This document shows, in pieces, positions 15,137-22,223 of a stretch of DNA of 22,224 bases (its first letter is position 1; each line of letters starts with the position of its first letter). Source of the stretch: an uncultured Macromonas sp. (GTDB lineage Bacteria; Pseudomonadota; Gammaproteobacteria; Burkholderiales; Burkholderiaceae); contig CAMLOF010000015.1 in assembly GCA_946481585.1 (NCBI GenBank), positions 1 to 22,224 on the forward strand, read 5' to 3'. A program made the translations under genes and the position numbers. Below the pieces are notes generated by a model. It was not told where the DNA came from, did not search any database, and saw only the letters and a program-made list of their open reading frames with translations.

Positions 15137-18100
15137 ATGCATCTATTGTCCACGCGGCCAGGCGGTTTCGTCGAAGACGGCGGGCAGGGCGTCGTGCGTG
15201 TTGAGCAGTCGCCAGGTGACATCGTGGTGTTGAGCGCGGCTGACACCACCTTGTCTTTGCTGGCCGACGCCGCTGCTGGATTGCCAGAGGCATTTCCAAA
15301 GGTGCGGCTGGCCAACCTGATGTGGCTGCGCCAGCCCGCGTCCACCGATTTCTACGTGGACGACGTGTTGCGCCACGCCAAGGTGGTGGTGGTTGATCAC
15401 CTGGGCAGCCCGAGCGACTGGGCGTATCTGGTGGAGCAACTGATGTCTCTGGCCGCACGGCAGGGGCAGTGGCTGGCGCTGTTTTCGGGCGACAACGTGG
15501 AAGACCCCCAGTTGTTGCTGCGCAGTACCGCTCCCGTGGAGGATTGCCGCCAGCTATGGCGCTGCCTGCGCGAGGGCGGGCGTGCCAATGCCTCTGCGTT
15601 CTTCTCACTCATCGGCCATGCGGTGTTCGGTATGGGGCAACGCCCGCCGCCGCCTCAACCGCTGCCACCGGTCATGCGTTACAGCCCTGCGGCGCCTTCG
15701 CGCTGGGTGCCCGGTGCGCCAGTGGCCTTGCTGGTTTTTTACCGCGCCCACGTGCAAGCCGGGAACACCGCGGTGTTCGACGTGGTGATGGCCGCGTTGG
15801 CGCAACGGGGGCTCAATACGCTGGCCGTTGGCGTGGATTCGTTGAAGAACCCAGACAGTCTGGCGGCCTTGCAAGGCCTGGCGGCAGAACACGGGGTGGG
15901 CGTGGTGCTGAACGCCACCAGCTTTGCCGTGGCTTCACTGGACGGTGGTGACAGCGATGGGGCACAGGCGTTGGCAGAGCTGGCCGGTGATGCACCGGTC
16001 CTGCAACTCATCACCGCTGGCTGTTCGCAAGAACAATGGCAGGCCGATCCGCATGGCCTTGCGGCGCGTGACCTGGCCATGCAAGTGGTGTTGCCCGAGG
16101 TGGATGGCCGCATCTGCACGCGCGCCATCAGCTTCAAGGGGCTGGCCTGGCGCTGCGAGCGCACCGAGGTTGATGTGGTGCGCTACCAGCCCGAACCCGA
16201 ACGCATCGATTTCGTCGCGGAACTGGCCAGGCGCTGGTGTGCCTTGCGCGATCGTCCCCATGCCAGCAAGCGCGTGGCGCTCATCCTGGCCAACTACCCC
16301 AACGACGATGCCAGACTCGCCAACGGCGTGGGCCTGGACACCCCGGCTTCCACGGTGCGCATCTTGCAGGCCATGCAGGCGCAGGGGTACATCGTAGATA
16401 AGCTTCCAACAGATGGCGACGCGCTGATGGCAGCGTTGACACGAGGGGTTACCAACAACCTGGACGCCAATGACGACAGGCCTGCGGGCCAGAGCTTGTC
16501 GATGGTGGACTATTTGGCCGACTTTCATGCGCTGCCGCAGGAGAACCAGGACGCGGTATGCGGACTGTGGGGTTCGCCAGTGCAAGACCCGATGGTGCGC
16601 AGCGGGCGTTTCATGGTGCCTGGGTTGCGCTTGGGTCAGGTGTTTGTCGGCATCCAGCCCGCGCGTGGCCGCGACCTGGACCTGGTGGCCAGCTACCACG
16701 ACGCGGACCTGGTGCCCACGCATGCCTACCTGGCCTTCTACTTCTGGCTACGGCGGGTGTTTGCGGTGGACGCGGTGGTGCACGTCGGCAAGCACGGCAA
16801 CCTGGAGTGGCTGCCGGGCAAGAGCGTGGCGCTGGGCGCGGCGTGCTGGCCCGATGCTCTGCTGGGACCCTTGCCGCACCTGTACCCGTTCATCGTCAAC
16901 GACCCGGGCGAAGGCAGCCAGGCCAAGCGTCGCACGCAGGCGGTCATCATCGACCATTTGATGCCCGCGCTCACGCGGGCCGAGACCTATGGGCCGCTGC
17001 TCGACGTGGAGCGGCAGATGGACGAGTACTACGAAGCCCTGGCGCTCGACCCCAGGCGGGCAAAGCGGCTGCGTGAAACCATTCTGGAGCACGTTGTCCA
17101 GCACAGGCTGCACGAAGATCTGGGTTTCCAGGCGCCCACGGACGACACACAACGCGAACAGCTGCTTACCCGGCTGGATGCCTACCTGTGCGAGATCAAG
17201 GAGTCCCAGATTCGCGACGGCCTGCACGTGCTCGGGTGTTCGCCACAGGGGCGCCAGCGTACCGACACCCTGGTGGCGCTGGCGCGCTTTCCCAGTGGCA
17301 AGGCGGCGGAGCAGGGCGGCCTGCTGGCGGCCCTGGCGCAAGACTTGGGCCTGCATGGCTTCGACCCTCTGGCTGTGGAATGGGCCGAACCCTGGGCCGG
17401 CCCGCGCCCCGGAGCGCTGGCTTGCCTGAGCGATGCACCGTGGCGGCACGCTGGGCACACCCGCGAACGACTGGAGATGCTGGCCGCACAGTGGGTAGAG
17501 CGTTACCTTGTCGTCGATGAAACCGGTGACGGCCGCCAGGCGCTGCCGGACCCGCAGGCCTGGCCGCACACCGCACCCGTGATCCGCCGCATGCGCGAAG
17601 TGTTGGCGCCCCGGTTGGACGCCTGTGGCCCTGCCGAGGTTGAACAGCTGCTTCGCGGATTGGCGGGCCGCTTTGTGCCCCCAGGCCCCAGTGGGGCACC
17701 GTCGCGCGGGCGGCCCGACGTGCTGCCCACCGGGCGCAACTTCTATTCGGTGGATACGCGCGCCGTGCCCACGCCCACCGCCTATGCCATGGGCCTGCTG
17801 GCCGCGCAGCGGGTCATCGAGCGGCATCTGCAGGACCAGGGCGCTTATCCCGATGCGGTTGGCCTGTCCGTTTGGGGCACCAGCACCATGCGCACGGGCG
17901 GCGAAGACATCGCGCAGGCCTTTGCCCTGCTGGGTGTGCGGCCCAAGTGGGCGGCGGGCAGCAACCGTGTGGTGGACATCGAGGTGCTGCCCATGGCGAT
18001 GAGCAACCGGCCGCGCATCGACGTGACCTTGCGCGTGTCTGGGTTCTTCCGCGATGCCTTCCCGAACGTCATCGACCTGTTCGACGCCGCTGTGCGCGCG

Positions 18101-18943
18101 GTGGCCGCCATTTCTGAGGAGGATGAGCCTGACGATGTCAACCCCATCCGTGCCAGGGTGCGGCGTGAAGCAGAGCAGGCCCAGGCGGAGGGCATGGCCC
18201 CTGGCCAGGCGCAGCGCCAGGCCACCTGGCGCGTTTTCGGCCCGCGGCTGGGTGGCTACGGCGCGGGCTTGCAGGAATTGATAGCCAGCGGCCGGTGGTC
18301 CGACACCGGAGACCTTGCACAGGCTTATCTGCGCGCCGGCGCCTTCGCCTACGGGCAGGACGCCCATGGGCAGGCAGCACGTGACACTTTCGAGCGGCGG
18401 CTGGCAGGTGTCGACGCGGTGCTGCACAACCAGGACAACCGCGAGCACGACATCCTCGATTCCGACGACTACTACCAGTTCCAGGGCGGCATGGCAGCTG
18501 CCGTGCAACACCTCACCGGCGCGCCCGCGGTGCTCTACCACGGCGATCTGAGTGTGCCTGGCGCGCCCCGTATCCGCACCCTTGGCGAAGAGGTGGCGCG
18601 CGTGGTGCGTTCGCGTGCCGTGAATCCCAAGTGGCTCGATGGCGTCAAGCGCCATGGCTACAAGGGGGCGTTCGAGGTAGCCGCGACGGTGGACTACCTG
18701 TTCGCCTTCGATGCCACGGCGGGTGTCGTGGCCGACCACCACTACGCCATGGTTGCTGATGCCTACGTGCACGACCCTGGCATCCGGGCTTTTTTGCAAC
18801 AACACAATCCACTGGCCTTGCGCAGCATCGGCGAGCGTTTGCTAGAGGCCATGCAGCGGGGGCTGTGGCAGGAGCCCGGTGATCACCGGGAACGGATCGA
18901 ACAACATCTGCTCGCGCTGGAGCATCGACTGGAGGAGCCTTGA
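15137..18943 (+). CDS. cobN: Cobaltochelatase large subunit CobN
   Basis: CobN binds hydrogenobyrinic acid a,c-diamide and cobalt and carries out ATP-dependent metal insertion with an AAA+/VWA motor pair. At 1268 aa it is the usual full length for CobN. Family hallmarks are VHVGKHGNLEWLPGKSVAL (His549, His553), FIVNDPGEGSQAKRR, and GRNFYSVDTRAVPTPTAYAMG. SVWGTSTMRTGGEDIAQAFALLG, LRVSGFFRDAFPN and a late HDILDSDDYYQFQGGMAA follow. Its ATG has AGGAAA just upstream, 11 bp after cobW. The gene is followed by an intrinsic terminator, so it probably ends the cobL-cobN transcript. A long antisense open frame inside it is a codon-bias artefact. Confidence 0.96.
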   Translation: MHLLSTRPGGFVEDGGQGVVRVEQSPGDIVVLSAADTTLSLLADAAAGLPEAFPKVRLANLMWLRQPASTDFYVDDVLRHAKVVVVDHLGSPSDWAYLVEQLMSLAARQGQWLALFSGDNVEDPQLLLRSTAPVEDCRQLWRCLREGGRANASAFFSLIGHAVFGMGQRPPPPQPLPPVMRYSPAAPSRWVPGAPVALLVFYRAHVQAGNTAVFDVVMAALAQRGLNTLAVGVDSLKNPDSLAALQGLAAEHGVGVVLNATSFAVASLDGGDSDGAQALAELAGDAPVLQLITAGCSQEQWQADPHGLAARDLAMQVVLPEVDGRICTRAISFKGLAWRCERTEVDVVRYQPEPERIDFVAELARRWCALRDRPHASKRVALILANYPNDDARLANGVGLDTPASTVRILQAMQAQGYIVDKLPTDGDALMAALTRGVTNNLDANDDRPAGQSLSMVDYLADFHALPQENQDAVCGLWGSPVQDPMVRSGRFMVPGLRLGQVFVGIQPARGRDLDLVASYHDADLVPTHAYLAFYFWLRRVFAVDAVVHVGKHGNLEWLPGKSVALGAACWPDALLGPLPHLYPFIVNDPGEGSQAKRRTQAVIIDHLMPALTRAETYGPLLDVERQMDEYYEALALDPRRAKRLRETILEHVVQHRLHEDLGFQAPTDDTQREQLLTRLDAYLCEIKESQIRDGLHVLGCSPQGRQRTDTLVALARFPSGKAAEQGGLLAALAQDLGLHGFDPLAVEWAEPWAGPRPGALACLSDAPWRHAGHTRERLEMLAAQWVERYLVVDETGDGRQALPDPQAWPHTAPVIRRMREVLAPRLDACGPAEVEQLLRGLAGRFVPPGPSGAPSRGRPDVLPTGRNFYSVDTRAVPTPTAYAMGLLAAQRVIERHLQDQGAYPDAVGLSVWGTSTMRTGGEDIAQAFALLGVRPKWAAGSNRVVDIEVLPMAMSNRPRIDVTLRVSGFFRDAFPNVIDLFDAAVRAVAAISEEDEPDDVNPIRARVRREAEQAQAEGMAPGQAQRQATWRVFGPRLGGYGAGLQELIASGRWSDTGDLAQAYLRAGAFAYGQDAHGQAARDTFERRLAGVDAVLHNQDNREHDILDSDDYYQFQGGMAAAVQHLTGAPAVLYHGDLSVPGAPRIRTLGEEVARVVRSRAVNPKWLDGVKRHGYKGAFEVAATVDYLFAFDATAGVVADHHYAMVADAYVHDPGIRAFLQQHNPLALRSIGERLLEAMQRGLWQEPGDHRERIEQHLLALEHRLEEP

Positions 18944-18969
18944 GGCACCTCTGCCCATTTTTCCGTGAT

Positions 18970-18992
18970 GCCGATCATCAATCGGCTTTTTT
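18970..18992 (+). terminator. Rho-independent terminator after cobN
   Basis: GCCGAT (18970-18975) and ATCGGC (18981-18986) form a perfect 6-bp stem with a 5-nt loop, followed directly by six T residues (18987-18992). The hairpin lies 27 bp after the cobN stop and about 25 bp before the cbtB start. It could end the cobN transcript completely or reduce read-through into cbtB. It is the only clear intrinsic terminator I found in the window. Confidence 0.75.
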
Positions 18993-19017
18993 GTCAAACC
19001 AACCCAAGGAGTTCATC

Positions 19018-19203
19018 ATGACCCAGTTCAACACTTCCAACCCGGCGGTTCCTGCCACGCGCGGTGCAGGCCTTTGGGGTAGCCTGTTCGCAGCGAGCGC
19101 TCTTGGCCTGATGTTGATGTATGGCGTAGCGTTCGCGCACAGCCCGTTGGCCCACAACGCCGCGCACGACGTTCGCCACGTCACCGTCAAGCCCTGCCAC
19201 TGA
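19018..19203 (+). CDS. cbtB: CbtB, small histidine-rich cobalt transporter subunit
   Basis: This 61-aa protein matches the CbtB family, the small partner of CbtA in a predicted, B12-regulated cobalt importer. One membrane helix spans about residues 19-40. It is followed by the conserved FAHSPLAHN segment and a tail with His41, 46, 50, 54 and 61 plus Cys60, likely metal ligands outside the membrane. AAGGAG (19006-19011) lies 6 nt before ATG 19018. It is the first gene after the terminator and leads the cbtBA-chelatase-motor unit. The genes of this family are often preceded by a cobalamin riboswitch, but the 74-bp gap here is too short and shows no B12 box. Confidence 0.88.
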   Translation: MTQFNTSNPAVPATRGAGLWGSLFAASALGLMLMYGVAFAHSPLAHNAAHDVRHVTVKPCH

Positions 19204-19239: not shown

Positions 19240-20034
19240 ATGAGACTCTTCCAAGCCTTGTTTTGGGCGGCACTGGCCGTCGCCGTGGTGGTAGGTAGTG
19301 CGCATACTGCGTTGATGCAGTGGTGGGCAACCCCCATCATCCTGCAGGCCGAGACCTTTGAAGACCAGAAGACCATCACGGGCACTGTGACCGAAGGTAA
19401 TCATGCCCACGATCGCGCGACGTCAGAGCCGCATACCCATGTGGTGGCGGCTGAAGGCGGAGAGGGCGGTTGGGTACCCCAGGACGGGGCCGAACGCACG
19501 TTCTGGACCTGGGCCGCCACAGTGCTGCATGCGTTGGCGATGGCCCTGCTGGGTTTGGTGGCGTTGAGTGTGCGGACCCACCTGCGCGGGCCAGCTTCGT
19601 CACGGCTGTTCGCCGCGTTGGGGCTGGCTACGGCGGGCTACATCAGCTTGCACCTGTGGCCTTCGTTGGGGCTGCATGCCGAGATTCCCGGTATGGACGC
19701 CGCTTACCTGGAGGGGCGGCAGGCTTGGTGGGTGTTGGCCGTTGCCAGTGCGTCGGCGGCATGTGGAGCTATTGCGCTGGGGCGCAGCGCATGGCGATGG
19801 GCGGCTGCGGCAGCCCTGCTGGCGTTGCCGTTCGCGGTGGGGGCCCCCCAGCTGGCGGGCGATCCCCTTGCCGGTTTCAGCGGGCAGGCACAGACTGCCC
19901 TGCGCACGTTGGGTGCTGATTTTGTGCGTGTCACGCACATGCTGGCCGTGGTGTTCTGGCTAGGGTTGGGTGCGGCATGTGCCTGGGCTTTCCAGCGCTG
20001 GGTGCAGCCAGTGCTGGCTACTTCCATCCGTTGA
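19240..20034 (+). CDS. cbtA: CbtA, membrane subunit of predicted cobalt transporter
   Basis: This 264-aa membrane protein matches CbtA. Predicted helices lie at about residues 4-24, 90-111, 122-140, 162-182, 184-203 and 232-252. A loop after the first helix carries His55, His57, His65 and His67 (NHAHD and PHTH), suitable for capturing Co2+. The segment YISLHLWPSLGLHAEIPGMD is typical of the family. AGGAG (19228-19232) is a strong ribosome binding site 7 nt before ATG 19240. With CbtB it would bring cobalt into the cytoplasm next to the CobN chelatase. Transport by CbtAB is a comparative-genomics prediction in the literature I know, not shown by this sequence. Confidence 0.88.
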   Translation: MRLFQALFWAALAVAVVVGSAHTALMQWWATPIILQAETFEDQKTITGTVTEGNHAHDRATSEPHTHVVAAEGGEGGWVPQDGAERTFWTWAATVLHALAMALLGLVALSVRTHLRGPASSRLFAALGLATAGYISLHLWPSLGLHAEIPGMDAAYLEGRQAWWVLAVASASAACGAIALGRSAWRWAAAAALLALPFAVGAPQLAGDPLAGFSGQAQTALRTLGADFVRVTHMLAVVFWLGLGAACAWAFQRWVQPVLATSIR

Positions 20035-20044
20035 TCGCACCAGC

Positions 20045-21088
20045 ATGACTGTTCCCGTTTTTCCCTTCAACGCGCTGGTAGGGCAGGCGCGGTTGCGGCA
20101 GGCCCTGTTGCTGGCGGCTGTGGACGAGCGCATCGGCGGCGTGCTCATCAGTGGGCCGCGCGGAAACGCCAAGTCCACTGCAGCTCGCGCGCTGTCAGGC
20201 TTGTTACCTGGTGCCCCCTTCGTCAATTTGCCGCTGGCGGCCAGTTTGGAGCAACTCGTGGGCACGCTGAGCCTGGAGGACGCCCTGCGCGACGGAGAAG
20301 TGCGGCTGGCCCCAGGGCTGGTGGCACGTGCCCATGGCGGTGTGCTCTACGTGGATGAAGTCAACCTCCTGCCCGATGCGTTGGTGGATGCGTTGCTCGA
20401 CGTGGCCGCCAGTGGAACGAATACGGTGGAGCGTGATGGTATTTCCCGTCAACATGCCGCCCGCTTCGTTCTGGTGGGTACCATGAACCCTGAGGAAGGG
20501 GACTTGCGCCCGCAATTGCTGGATCGCTTTGGCCTGTTCGTTTCCCTGGACAATCCGGGCGATGCCGCGCAACGCCAAGCCATCGTGCGCGCCCGATTGG
20601 CTTTCGATCATGACCCGGACACCGTGTTCAGGGCACATGAGGCAGAGCAGACCCGTCTTCAGACTCGCGTCGCGGCGGCGCGCGAGATGCTGTCCCGTCT
20701 GTCTTGGCATGATGACGTGCTTCAGCGTGCCGCAGACTTGGCATTGGCGGCTGGTGTAGATGGCGTGCGGGCCGACTTGGTGATGTTGCGTGCAGCCCGC
20801 GCGCAAGCGGCGCTGGAAGGGCGTGATCGCATCTGCGTGGAACACGTGGACGCTGTGGCCGAGTTTGCATTGGCGCACCGCCGTGGCGGTGACGGTCATA
20901 CTGACAACGCCAGACCGCCCGTGGGGGGGGCGCACGGAAACGAAGGGCCACACTCCCCTCAGTCGCGGTCTGCAAATGCCCCTTCTGCACATGCCGAACC
21001 AGAGGGCGACTGGGGTGCGCTGCCGCCGCAACCGCAAGCCTTGGCGCGCGTGCGATCCGCAGGGGCACTCATCCCAAAAAAAGCGTGA
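20045..21088 (+). CDS. chlI: ChlI-like AAA+ ATPase, small subunit of CobN chelatase
   Basis: This 347-aa protein is an AAA+ ATPase of the magnesium-chelatase I type. It has FPFNALVGQARLRQAL at the start, Walker A GPRGNAKST (37-45; the AKST ending is normal in CobN-linked members), and Walker B VLYVDE (100-105). Sensor-1 is GTMNPEEGDLRPQ (Asn148) and the Arg finger region is LLDRFGL (Arg161). A helical lid extends to about residue 285, then a Pro/Gly/His-rich linker. That linker is unusual for a small subunit and looks like the AAA-VWA linker of ChlD. Codons 345-346 lie in an A7 run immediately before the stop, and a -1 slip there enters the VWA frame. The gene may thus encode both a 347-aa I subunit and the N-terminal half of a 580-aa D subunit. 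No CobS/CobT genes are present. Confidence 0.9.
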   Translation: MTVPVFPFNALVGQARLRQALLLAAVDERIGGVLISGPRGNAKSTAARALSGLLPGAPFVNLPLAASLEQLVGTLSLEDALRDGEVRLAPGLVARAHGGVLYVDEVNLLPDALVDALLDVAASGTNTVERDGISRQHAARFVLVGTMNPEEGDLRPQLLDRFGLFVSLDNPGDAAQRQAIVRARLAFDHDPDTVFRAHEAEQTRLQTRVAAAREMLSRLSWHDDVLQRAADLALAAGVDGVRADLVMLRAARAQAALEGRDRICVEHVDAVAEFALAHRRGGDGHTDNARPPVGGAHGNEGPHSPQSRSANAPSAHAEPEGDWGALPPQPQALARVRSAGALIPKKA

Positions 21089-21136
21089 GCCACCCCGGCC
21101 CGCGCGCACCCACGGTGTCCAGCGGCTGGCGGTGGC
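21061..21136 (+). other. Putative programmed -1 ribosomal frameshift signal joining chlI-like and chlD-like frames
   Basis: AGGGG (21061-21065) resembles a Shine-Dalgarno and lies 10 nt before A7 (21076-21082). In the zero frame this run reads CCA AAA AAA, so A AAA AAA is a canonical X XXY YYZ slippery heptamer. GCG and the zero-frame TGA (21086-21088) follow. A stem starts 6 nt after the heptamer. GCCACC (21089-21094) pairs with GGTGGC (21131-21136). CCGGCC (21095-21100) pairs with GGCTGG (21124-21129), including one G-U, and C21130 is bulged. That gives 12 pairs. The loop contains a small CACC/GGTG hairpin. After a -1 slip, codons run AGC GTG AGC into the VWA frame. The layout matches the E. 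coli dnaX signal. Confidence 0.75.
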
Positions 21137-21786
21137 AGTCTCCTCCGTTGGGGCCGCGACCGGTCCTGCCGGGCCGGGTTCAACCTGTGGCCCGCGTGGG
21201 TAGCCTCTTGGGCCAACGCGTTGACTGGGTGCGAACCCTCGCGGCCAAAGGCCCGGGGCGGCTGCGGCAGGAGCACGTTCGCCACCAGCCGCTGAACGTG
21301 CGGGTGCCCACATTGCATGTCATTGCTTTGGATACGTCTGGCTCCATGCGTTCGCGGGGCCGCCTGGCATGGGCCAAGGGGTATGCCGCGAGCCTGATTC
21401 AAGAGGCCGCGCGTCATGGTGATCATGTGGCCTTGCTGTGCTTTGGCGGGCGGGGGGTGGAGCTGTTGCTTCCCCCGGGGCCAGCGCGCACGGCAGGCGT
21501 GGTGCGTGTGCGACCCCTGGGCGGCGGCGGCGGTACGCCGCTGTCGGTCTGCGTGTGCGAGGCCGACCGCCTGCTGCAGAGCATCAGGCGCAGTCAGAAA
21601 CCATTCACCAGGGCTTGTTTGTGGCTGCTCACAGACGGTCGCACGCTTGACAGCCCCCCGGCGCCCAAGGCGGTCGATCAAGTCATCGTCGTTGACTTCG
21701 ATGACCCGAGGCTGCCGATTGGCCGGTGCGCAAGTTGGGCCAAGCAGTGGCGGGCCGAATACCGTCTGGGCCCACAAGGTACCTGA
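21085..21786 (+). CDS. chlD: ChlD-like VWA-domain part of the cobalt chelatase medium subunit
   Basis: This frame encodes the integrin-I/VWA domain of a ChlD-type subunit with a complete MIDAS site: DTSGS (Asp83, Ser85, Ser87), Thr151 in GGGGTPL and Asp184 in LTDGR. Residues 1-75 resemble the basic linker before the VWA domain in ChlD. Read alone from GTG 21085 (GTGA overlap with the upstream stop), the protein has 233 aa and lacks the AAA+ domain that medium subunits normally carry. No ribosome binding site lies at proper distance; the nearest AGGGG is 19 nt away. It is therefore better explained as the C-terminal part of a 580-aa AAA+-VWA protein made by -1 frameshifting. Stand-alone expression by termination-reinitiation is the alternative. 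Confidence 0.88.
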   Translation: MSHPGPRAPTVSSGWRWQSPPLGPRPVLPGRVQPVARVGSLLGQRVDWVRTLAAKGPGRLRQEHVRHQPLNVRVPTLHVIALDTSGSMRSRGRLAWAKGYAASLIQEAARHGDHVALLCFGGRGVELLLPPGPARTAGVVRVRPLGGGGGTPLSVCVCEADRLLQSIRRSQKPFTRACLWLLTDGRTLDSPPAPKAVDQVIVVDFDDPRLPIGRCASWAKQWRAEYRLGPQGT

Positions 21787-21812: not shown

Positions 21813-22223
21813 ATGACGCATTTCACATCCTCCCCTATCACCGAAGTGATTGTTTGCACCACCTGTCGCCCTCCTGGGGTTTCCCGGGACGAACCTGCGG
21901 CTGGCGAGATGTTGTTCGAGGCTGTGCAAACTGCCCAGAGTACGGACGTCACCGGCCAGTGGGGCCGCGTGCGGGTCCGTGGGATGGCATGCTTGAACAG
22001 TTGCTCGCGAGCCTGCACCGTGGCGTTCCAGGCGCATGGGAAGCACAGTTATCTGTTCGGTGATCTGACGCCTGGGGCGGGGCTTGCCGAACAGGTTTTG
22101 GCCTGCGCGCGCATGCATGCTGATGCCTCGGACGGAACGCTTGTGAGGAATGAGCGGCCTGAGGGCTTGCGCAACGGCATTCTGGCCAAGCTGCCGCCTC
22201 CACTGGAGCCCGCACTGCCGTGA
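21813..22223 (+). CDS. DUF1636 cysteine-rich metal-binding protein
   Basis: This 136-aa protein matches DUF1636, a thioredoxin-like-ferredoxin-type family often found beside cobalamin genes. Cysteines occur as C15-X2-C18 (VCTTCRPPG) and C60-X3-C64-X3-C68 (MACLNSCSRACTVAF), followed by the conserved HSYLFGDLTPG segment and an ERPEGLRNGILAKLPP tail. The five cysteines suggest a bound metal or a [2Fe-2S]-like cluster. Its biochemical role is unknown to me, with a part in cobalt handling only inferred from context. ATG 21813 lies 26 bp after the VWA stop with no clear Shine-Dalgarno. The preceding bases are AT-rich, and a 5-codon ATG frame (21799-21816) overlaps the start. The stop lies one base before the window end, and GTG 22220 could begin the next gene. 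Confidence 0.85.
   Translation: MTHFTSSPITEVIVCTTCRPPGVSRDEPAAGEMLFEAVQTAQSTDVTGQWGRVRVRGMACLNSCSRACTVAFQAHGKHSYLFGDLTPGAGLAEQVLACARMHADASDGTLVRNERPEGLRNGILAKLPPPLEPALP

Follow-up and report, generated by a model that had tools for sequence, protein, structure and literature searches.

A probable frameshifted chlD gene in a B12 locus combines a conserved slip site with a covarying downstream stem

INTRODUCTION

By sequence, the solved structures closest to the gene described here are those of the magnesium chelatase subunits ChlI/BchI and ChlD/BchD (1g8p, 2x31, 8osf), which follow the same AAA plus VWA plan. In magnesium chelatase the I and D subunits come from two genes, whereas the single gene of this locus, its AAA module common to both products, would provide the two. 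CobS and CobT of cobaltochelatase likewise serve aerobic B12 synthesis together with CobN but belong to different families.

Frameshifting in chlD has already been published, in 2013 with reporter assays in E. coli and in later work. Antonov 2013 (PMC3711429) describes 23 genes of this kind, found in Pseudomonas, Burkholderia, Delftia, Herpetosiphon, Methanocaldococcus and Methanococcus; reporter cassettes shifted in E. coli at 63, 40, and 10%, the 10% value being obtained with seven A's. In a review (Atkins 2016; PMC5009743), the signal is given as A_AAA_AAR plus stem potential, and the stem sequence is termed not strongly conserved. Kuznetsov 2022 (PMC9227772), which uses a database covering more than 1200 genomes, states that one chlD may yield both subunits. 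An initial annotation of the DNA analyzed here, made from its letters, had mentioned that frameshifted chlD genes had been published, and these three papers bear this out.

The dnaX gene of E. coli shares with this gene type an A_AAA_AAR heptamer, a spacer, a stem and two products per gene; it also has an upstream Shine-Dalgarno element, whose counterpart here is significant in the clade of the window and not in the window itself. The consequence of the shift differs: in E. coli dnaX it leads to the short product, whereas in frameshifted chlD (fs-chlD) it leads to the long one.

Here we describe a chlD-like gene in a 22,224-nt stretch of DNA from an uncultured Macromonas sp. (the window). Compared with published fs-chlD genes, the same AAA half, A_AAA_AAR heptamer, -1 shift, stem-forming sequence and link to cobalt chelatase are found, and the window differs from them in carrying cbtBA between cobN and the gene.

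RESULTS

The gene lies in a B12 locus next to cobN

Domain matches in the window include several tetrapyrrole methylases, CbiC/CobH, the CbiG C-terminus, CobA/CobO, CobW, a CobB/CobQ-like amidotransferase, CobU, two periplasmic binding proteins and parts of a FecCD/ABC transporter, a content that identifies it as a B12 locus. It also encodes a nitrite/sulfite-reductase-like protein that is probably CobG and would thus indicate the aerobic route. On the + strand lie cobN, for the large cobaltochelatase subunit (15137..18943; TIGR02257, 1537 bits against a cut-off of 822), cbtB (18940-19203), cbtA (19240-20034) and the gene under study (20045..21786); directly 3' of the latter is a DUF1636 gene (21813-22223; domain match). 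By tblastn, a cobN match falls within the flanks of 75 of the 80 rows of the comparative set described below, and a DUF1636 match lies near the gene in 13. The placement of cbtBA between cobN and the gene is particular to the window among these 80 rows. In L001 cbtB-cbtA precede cobN, and in L020 and L028 they follow DUF1636; since its position differs among loci, this cobalt-transporter pair seems to be mobile within the locus.

The gene holds two overlapping frames on the + strand. The zero frame (20045..21088) starts with ATG at 20045, ends in ..PKKA* and, by translation and domain matches, encodes a ChlI-like AAA+ subunit of 347 aa. The -1 frame extension (21082..21786), 234 codons followed by TGA at 21784-21786, would encode the linker and VWA domain of a ChlD-like product. 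AAA_lid_2, Mg_chelatase and AAA_5 match the first half and VWA_2 the second. Both halves match TIGR02442 ("putative cobaltochelatase"), the best stretches covering profile positions 87-319 and 456-585 out of 641, and neither reaches the cut-off on its own; the CobS and CobT models TIGR01650 and TIGR01651 are absent among the matches of both ORFs at E <= 0.001. When a profile of 26 relatives was used, the best-scoring solved structures for the AAA half were ChlI and the 38-kDa magnesium-chelatase subunit. Translation of the shared AAA module gives a Walker A motif (GPRGNAKS) and VDEVN, and that of the extension contains DTSGS, GGGGGTP and LLTDGR; we take DTSGS, GGGGGTP and TDGR to be metal-site motifs of VWA domains. 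A protein database search found close protein-level relatives for both halves, the three nearest database proteins being 85-92% identical. In relatives, gene callers annotate the two halves as separate proteins, the VWA ones often of 220-240 aa.

The junction of the two frames reads CCA AAA AAA GCG TGA GCC ACC. From 5' to 3', the + strand carries (i) a Shine-Dalgarno-like AGGGG (21061..21065) 10 nt 5' of the slip site, (ii) the ten-base spacer between them (21066-21075), (iii) the slippery heptamer A AAA AAA, in zero frame A_AAA_AAA (21076..21082), (iv) a six-base spacer (21083-21088) that includes the zero-frame stop TGA (21086..21088), 3 nt 3' of the heptamer, and (v) a putative stimulatory stem (21089..21136), in which 21089-21100 pairs with 21124-21136. 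A GTG (21085..21087), not conserved in relatives, overlaps the TGA and is a rival candidate for a restart codon. The initial annotation had named the AGGGG, both spacers, the heptamer, the near stop and the stem, all of which can be read in the sequence. Its unshifted product of 347 aa and fused product of 580 aa follow from ORF translation and codon arithmetic (346 + 234 codons for a slip at the heptamer), and the VWA_2 match agrees with its claim that the -1 frame enters the VWA domain.

We consider it very probable that this gene is an fs-chlD that makes a short I and a long D subunit by a -1 slip. Most ribosomes would read CCA AAA AAA GCG TGA and stop, yielding the 347-aa ChlI-like AAA+ ATPase as the small subunit (I). 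A fraction would pause at the GC-rich stem 6 nt downstream, the lysyl-tRNAs on A AAA AAA would re-pair one base back, and reading would resume with AGC GTG and continue through the linker and VWA domain, yielding the 580-aa ChlD-like medium subunit (D). I and D would then assemble with CobN into the aerobic cobaltochelatase. The frames, heptamer, stop and stem are features of the DNA itself, conserved as described below; the shift in the source organism, its efficiency, the assembly of the subunits and the metal are what we infer.

Slip site, stop spacing and frame relation are conserved

Shuffling the window 100 times produced an A7 on either strand in 27 cases, and the A-run and the fold of the window alone are only mildly unusual. 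The evidence comes from comparison. When one genome per species was scanned, at least 588 stretches and at least 582 relatives were obtained, of which the best 80 loci were kept; the 80 rows analyzed are the window and 79 of these loci, L030 being left out where its contig ends before the stop. We scanned for an in-frame A AAA AA[AG] no more than 24 nt from the zero-frame stop. Among these best 80 of at least 582, the heptamer precedes the stop of the AAA ORF in 73 rows, or in 74 with L058, which the scan missed through an earlier in-frame stop near the contig end and which we added by hand; L058 carries the same signal as the other frameshift loci. The A-run, singled out in the initial annotation for a conservation check, is thus retained in 74 of 80 rows. 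The other six (L043, L045, L048, L062, L068 and L074) are single ORFs.

The geometry of the site is nearly invariant across the 73 scanned loci. The heptamer (48 A_AAA_AAA, 25 A_AAA_AAG) stands exactly 3 nt from the stop (TGA in 56, TAG in 17) in 72 of 73, and the VWA domain is in the -1 frame in every one of the 72 loci with a VWA match, L037 being without one. Elsewhere in the same 73 genes, runs of six or more A's occur three times in 124,762 nt. A second draw of 199 genomes came from the family of G025 (a Denitromonas); 20 of these had a match, which was close (71-100% identity) in 10. After L180, whose contig ends too early, was dropped, nine were readable (L175-L179 and L181-L184), of which L175 is the gene of L044, already in the first set. 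All nine have the slip site just 5' of the stop (7 A_AAA_AAG, 2 A_AAA_AAA), and in the 8 of 8 loci that extend to the VWA domain it is in the -1 frame. The 10 weaker genomes (46-53% identity) were covered by a heptamer scan on the stored strand, plus L185.

In Cupriavidus basilensis OR16 (L037), the slip site and stem are kept, the VWA half was not found past position about 7030, and the -1 frame is open for just 65 codons.

The two heptamer types were also compared with tRNA content. In a first test of 28 genomes, all 14 with an ARAGORN-confirmed tRNA-Lys(CUU) had A_AAA_AAA. The A_AAA_AAG genomes G042 (L168) and G039 (L172) also gave ARAGORN CUU calls, and the idea that A_AAA_AAG occurs only where tRNA-Lys(CUU) is absent was refuted by G213, G244, G127, G239 and G250, which have A_AAA_AAG and a confirmed tRNA-Lys(CUU). 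The Pseudomonas serbica contig (G042, L168) has 16 ARAGORN tRNA calls in 3 kb, two of them tRNA-Lys(CUU), and this group resembles a tRNA cluster carried by a phage or another mobile element.

A stem at a fixed distance covaries among relatives

The 58-nt fold of 21083-21140, which the initial annotation had marked for folding, contains the stem at -33.3 kcal/mol, but its z of -1.84 is modest and 12 of 200 shuffles were equally stable. At gathering threshold, Rfam gave zero families in the window, and zero with E <= 1 in 20900-21300. Pairing was examined across relatives in 54 non-redundant segments, 19 near-copies having been removed. In 39 of 54 segments the 8-mer starting at +6 can pair perfectly with a stretch no more than 60 nt away, G-U counting as a pair; with partners exchanged among loci the share drops to 15%. 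For 8-mers that start elsewhere than +5 to +11, at most 7% pair within their own segment. With 7-mers a second, weaker rise appears at +23 (13/54 against 11% swapped), which is probably an inner stem. A spacing of +6 resembles that of other -1 stimulators.

The same register stands out against other positions in the genes. An 8-bp stem at +6, the element whose conservation was to be checked, is present in 54 of 73 loci, compared with 533 of 10074 control positions (5.3%) in the same genes, and a stem of at least 6 bp in 64 of 73, compared with 2572 of 10074. Within these 64 loci, pair 3 is C-G in 42 and A-U in 22; pair 4 is A-U in 36 and U-A in 25, plus three other types; and pair 5 is C-G in 31, U-A in 23 and U-G in 10. 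Both arms change together, as in GCCACC/GGTGGC, GCCATC/GATGGC, GCCTCC/GGAGGC and ACCACC/GGTGGT. Nine of the 73 loci are without a perfect 6-bp stem at +6 (L015, L016, L019, L023, L025, L027, L036, L041 and L042), and some of these, L015, L016, L025 and L027 among them, fold a similar stem one base later. The fixed register and the covariation argue that the RNA structure is under selection. Together with the frame relation, slip site and stop spacing, the covarying stem, seen across several pseudomonadotal families, supports the programmed -1 frameshift that the initial annotation had proposed.

A Shine-Dalgarno-like element is stronger than expected in one clade

Shine-Dalgarno strength, taken as binding to the anti-Shine-Dalgarno, was compared with that of synonymous-codon shuffles, which keep the protein unchanged. 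For the window itself the match is -5.7 kcal/mol, where such shuffles average -4.4, and 0.33 of them were as good. The signal appears in the 15-member clade of the window, at -8.01 against an expected -5.12 kcal/mol with 0 of 300 shuffles as strong, for rows that were chosen after the energies were seen and that a tree later recovered as the same 15-member clade. That AAA-domain tree (80 rows) places the window in a set of 15 A_AAA_AAA rows with support of 100/99, and 10 of the other 14 are labeled Comamonadaceae. The 33 other A_AAA_AAA loci showed a slight excess, -4.24 against -3.4 (1 of 300 shuffles as strong), and the 25 A_AAA_AAG loci had no Shine-Dalgarno excess (249 of 300 as strong). 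With plain shuffles of all 73 loci, 42 were stronger than their own mean, which is no clear general Shine-Dalgarno signal. Thus, of the dnaX-like three-part signal claimed for the window, the slip site and stem stand, and the Shine-Dalgarno part holds for the clade and is not significant in the window itself; the three-part signal would then be a feature of the clade.

This gene type is the only detected I and D source in most sampled frameshift genomes

Genome content was sampled in 16 relatives, ten with the frameshift gene (G001-G008, G015 and G016) and six with a fused ORF (G009-G014). A CobN match is present in all 16. With the AAA query, 15 genomes gave a single copy and G004 gave two, the second of which is a frameshift gene too, with slip site and stem. 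This genome, Hydrogenophaga intermedia (contigs C44 and C76; L208), has two cobN genes, each adjoining its own frameshift chlD. CobT matches occur in 5 of 16 (G001, G007, G010, G012 and G013) and CobS matches in 6 of 16 (strong in the same five, weak in G004), none of either above the curated cut-off. Eight of the ten frameshift genomes have cobN and are without CobT, a strong CobS or any AAA homologue beyond this gene type, absences that are counted in sampled genomes of unstated completeness; G001 and G007, also frameshift genomes, do carry CobT and strong CobS matches. By these counts, no source of I and D other than this gene type was detected in 8 of the 10, which indirectly supports the earlier claim that one gene makes both. 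The short product is therefore probably, not certainly, needed in the frameshift lineages, and a separate chlI, cobS or cobT elsewhere in the source genome of the window is possible.

Among the fused-ORF genomes, G009, G011 and G014 are without a CobT or CobS match. In G011 (L048) and G014 (L074), both Gammaproteobacteria, cobN is long and open, and a single fused AAA-VWA gene is present without a second AAA homologue, so the long product alone can apparently suffice there, and their chelatase motor may consist of the long chain alone. Judging from these relatives, the short product may be dispensable in some cases. Acidovorax sp. SUPP3334 (L043, G009) has a fused chlD that lacks the slip site; the neighboring cobN was found as two pieces with two TAA stops, and the locus looks like one in decay.

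There are four other explanations to weigh. The one that survives best accepts the frameshifting as real and assigns a role to the long product alone, with the short one as a tolerated by-product. The fused-only G011 and G014, in which cobN is present and another I subunit was not found, fit it, as does an AAA module common to both products. Yet a single inserted base would fuse the frames, and the shift, with its stop at the slip site, persists in 74 of 80 rows; beyond the five gammaproteobacterial fused rows, the lone fused gene (L043) adjoins the broken cobN. We regard a mere by-product as unlikely.

A second explanation is that the locus holds two genes, one for a ChlI-like AAA protein and one for an independent VWA protein, whose translation would reinitiate at GTG 21085 after termination at the GTGA overlap. 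The overlap of GTG and stop in the window and the separately called VWA proteins of relatives are what this would produce, but the stop-overlapping codon in the 73 loci is CTG in 53, CTA in 12, GTA in 3, TTA in 2, GTG in 2 and ATG in 1, and in 27 of them no ATG, GTG or TTG is found in the -1 frame from -60 to +120. Separated frames with their own ribosome binding sites, an outcome that would have counted against a frameshift, did not appear in relatives. Restart requires neither an in-frame heptamer nor a stem at +6, and we find it very improbable.

Transcriptional slippage at the A-run, giving mixed mRNAs of which part would fuse the frames, is slightly more improbable still. Other genes with longer A-runs are known to undergo polymerase slippage, and 48 of 73 loci have A-runs of 7 to 9. 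The remaining 25, however, have just six A's followed by G, which is short for polymerase slippage, and slippage alone does not explain why the stop lies at 3 nt and the stem at +6. Finally, a sequencing error or pseudogene, in which one A was lost from a true single ORF like those of the six fused rows, is barely credible, since 72 of 72 loci, from both isolates and MAGs, share the identical -1 offset at this position together with a conserved signal (a missing eighth A is hence hardly likely), and both halves have close protein relatives.

DISCUSSION

Our preferred reading of the gene remains a programmed -1 slip that yields both I and D. Genes of the fs-chlD type were reportedly also covered by Antonov in 2020. 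Relative to PMC3711429, PMC5009743 and PMC9227772, the present analysis appears to add evidence from covariation and a Shine-Dalgarno signal limited to one clade. Where the review (PMC5009743) terms the stem sequence not strongly conserved, we find its position and pairing conserved by covariation.

The fixed geometry, with a slip site, a stop at 3 nt and a stem at 6 nt, is thereby established beyond the folding of a single sequence, and it spans Comamonadaceae, Burkholderiaceae, Pseudomonas and the family of Denitromonas. The D subunit of such loci is easily missed because gene callers split the two halves.

A tentative and rather doubtful extension is that I and D share one apparently intact AAA module and that the ratio of short to long product would itself be the control point of cobalt insertion, with the strength of the slip signal tuned by lineage, through the stem in most and through a Shine-Dalgarno helper in the mostly Comamonadaceae clade of the window. 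In any case, the fused-only relatives offer natural controls for whether the short subunit is needed; if the ratio does act as a control point, they would be natural fixed-ratio versions of the same chelatase motor.
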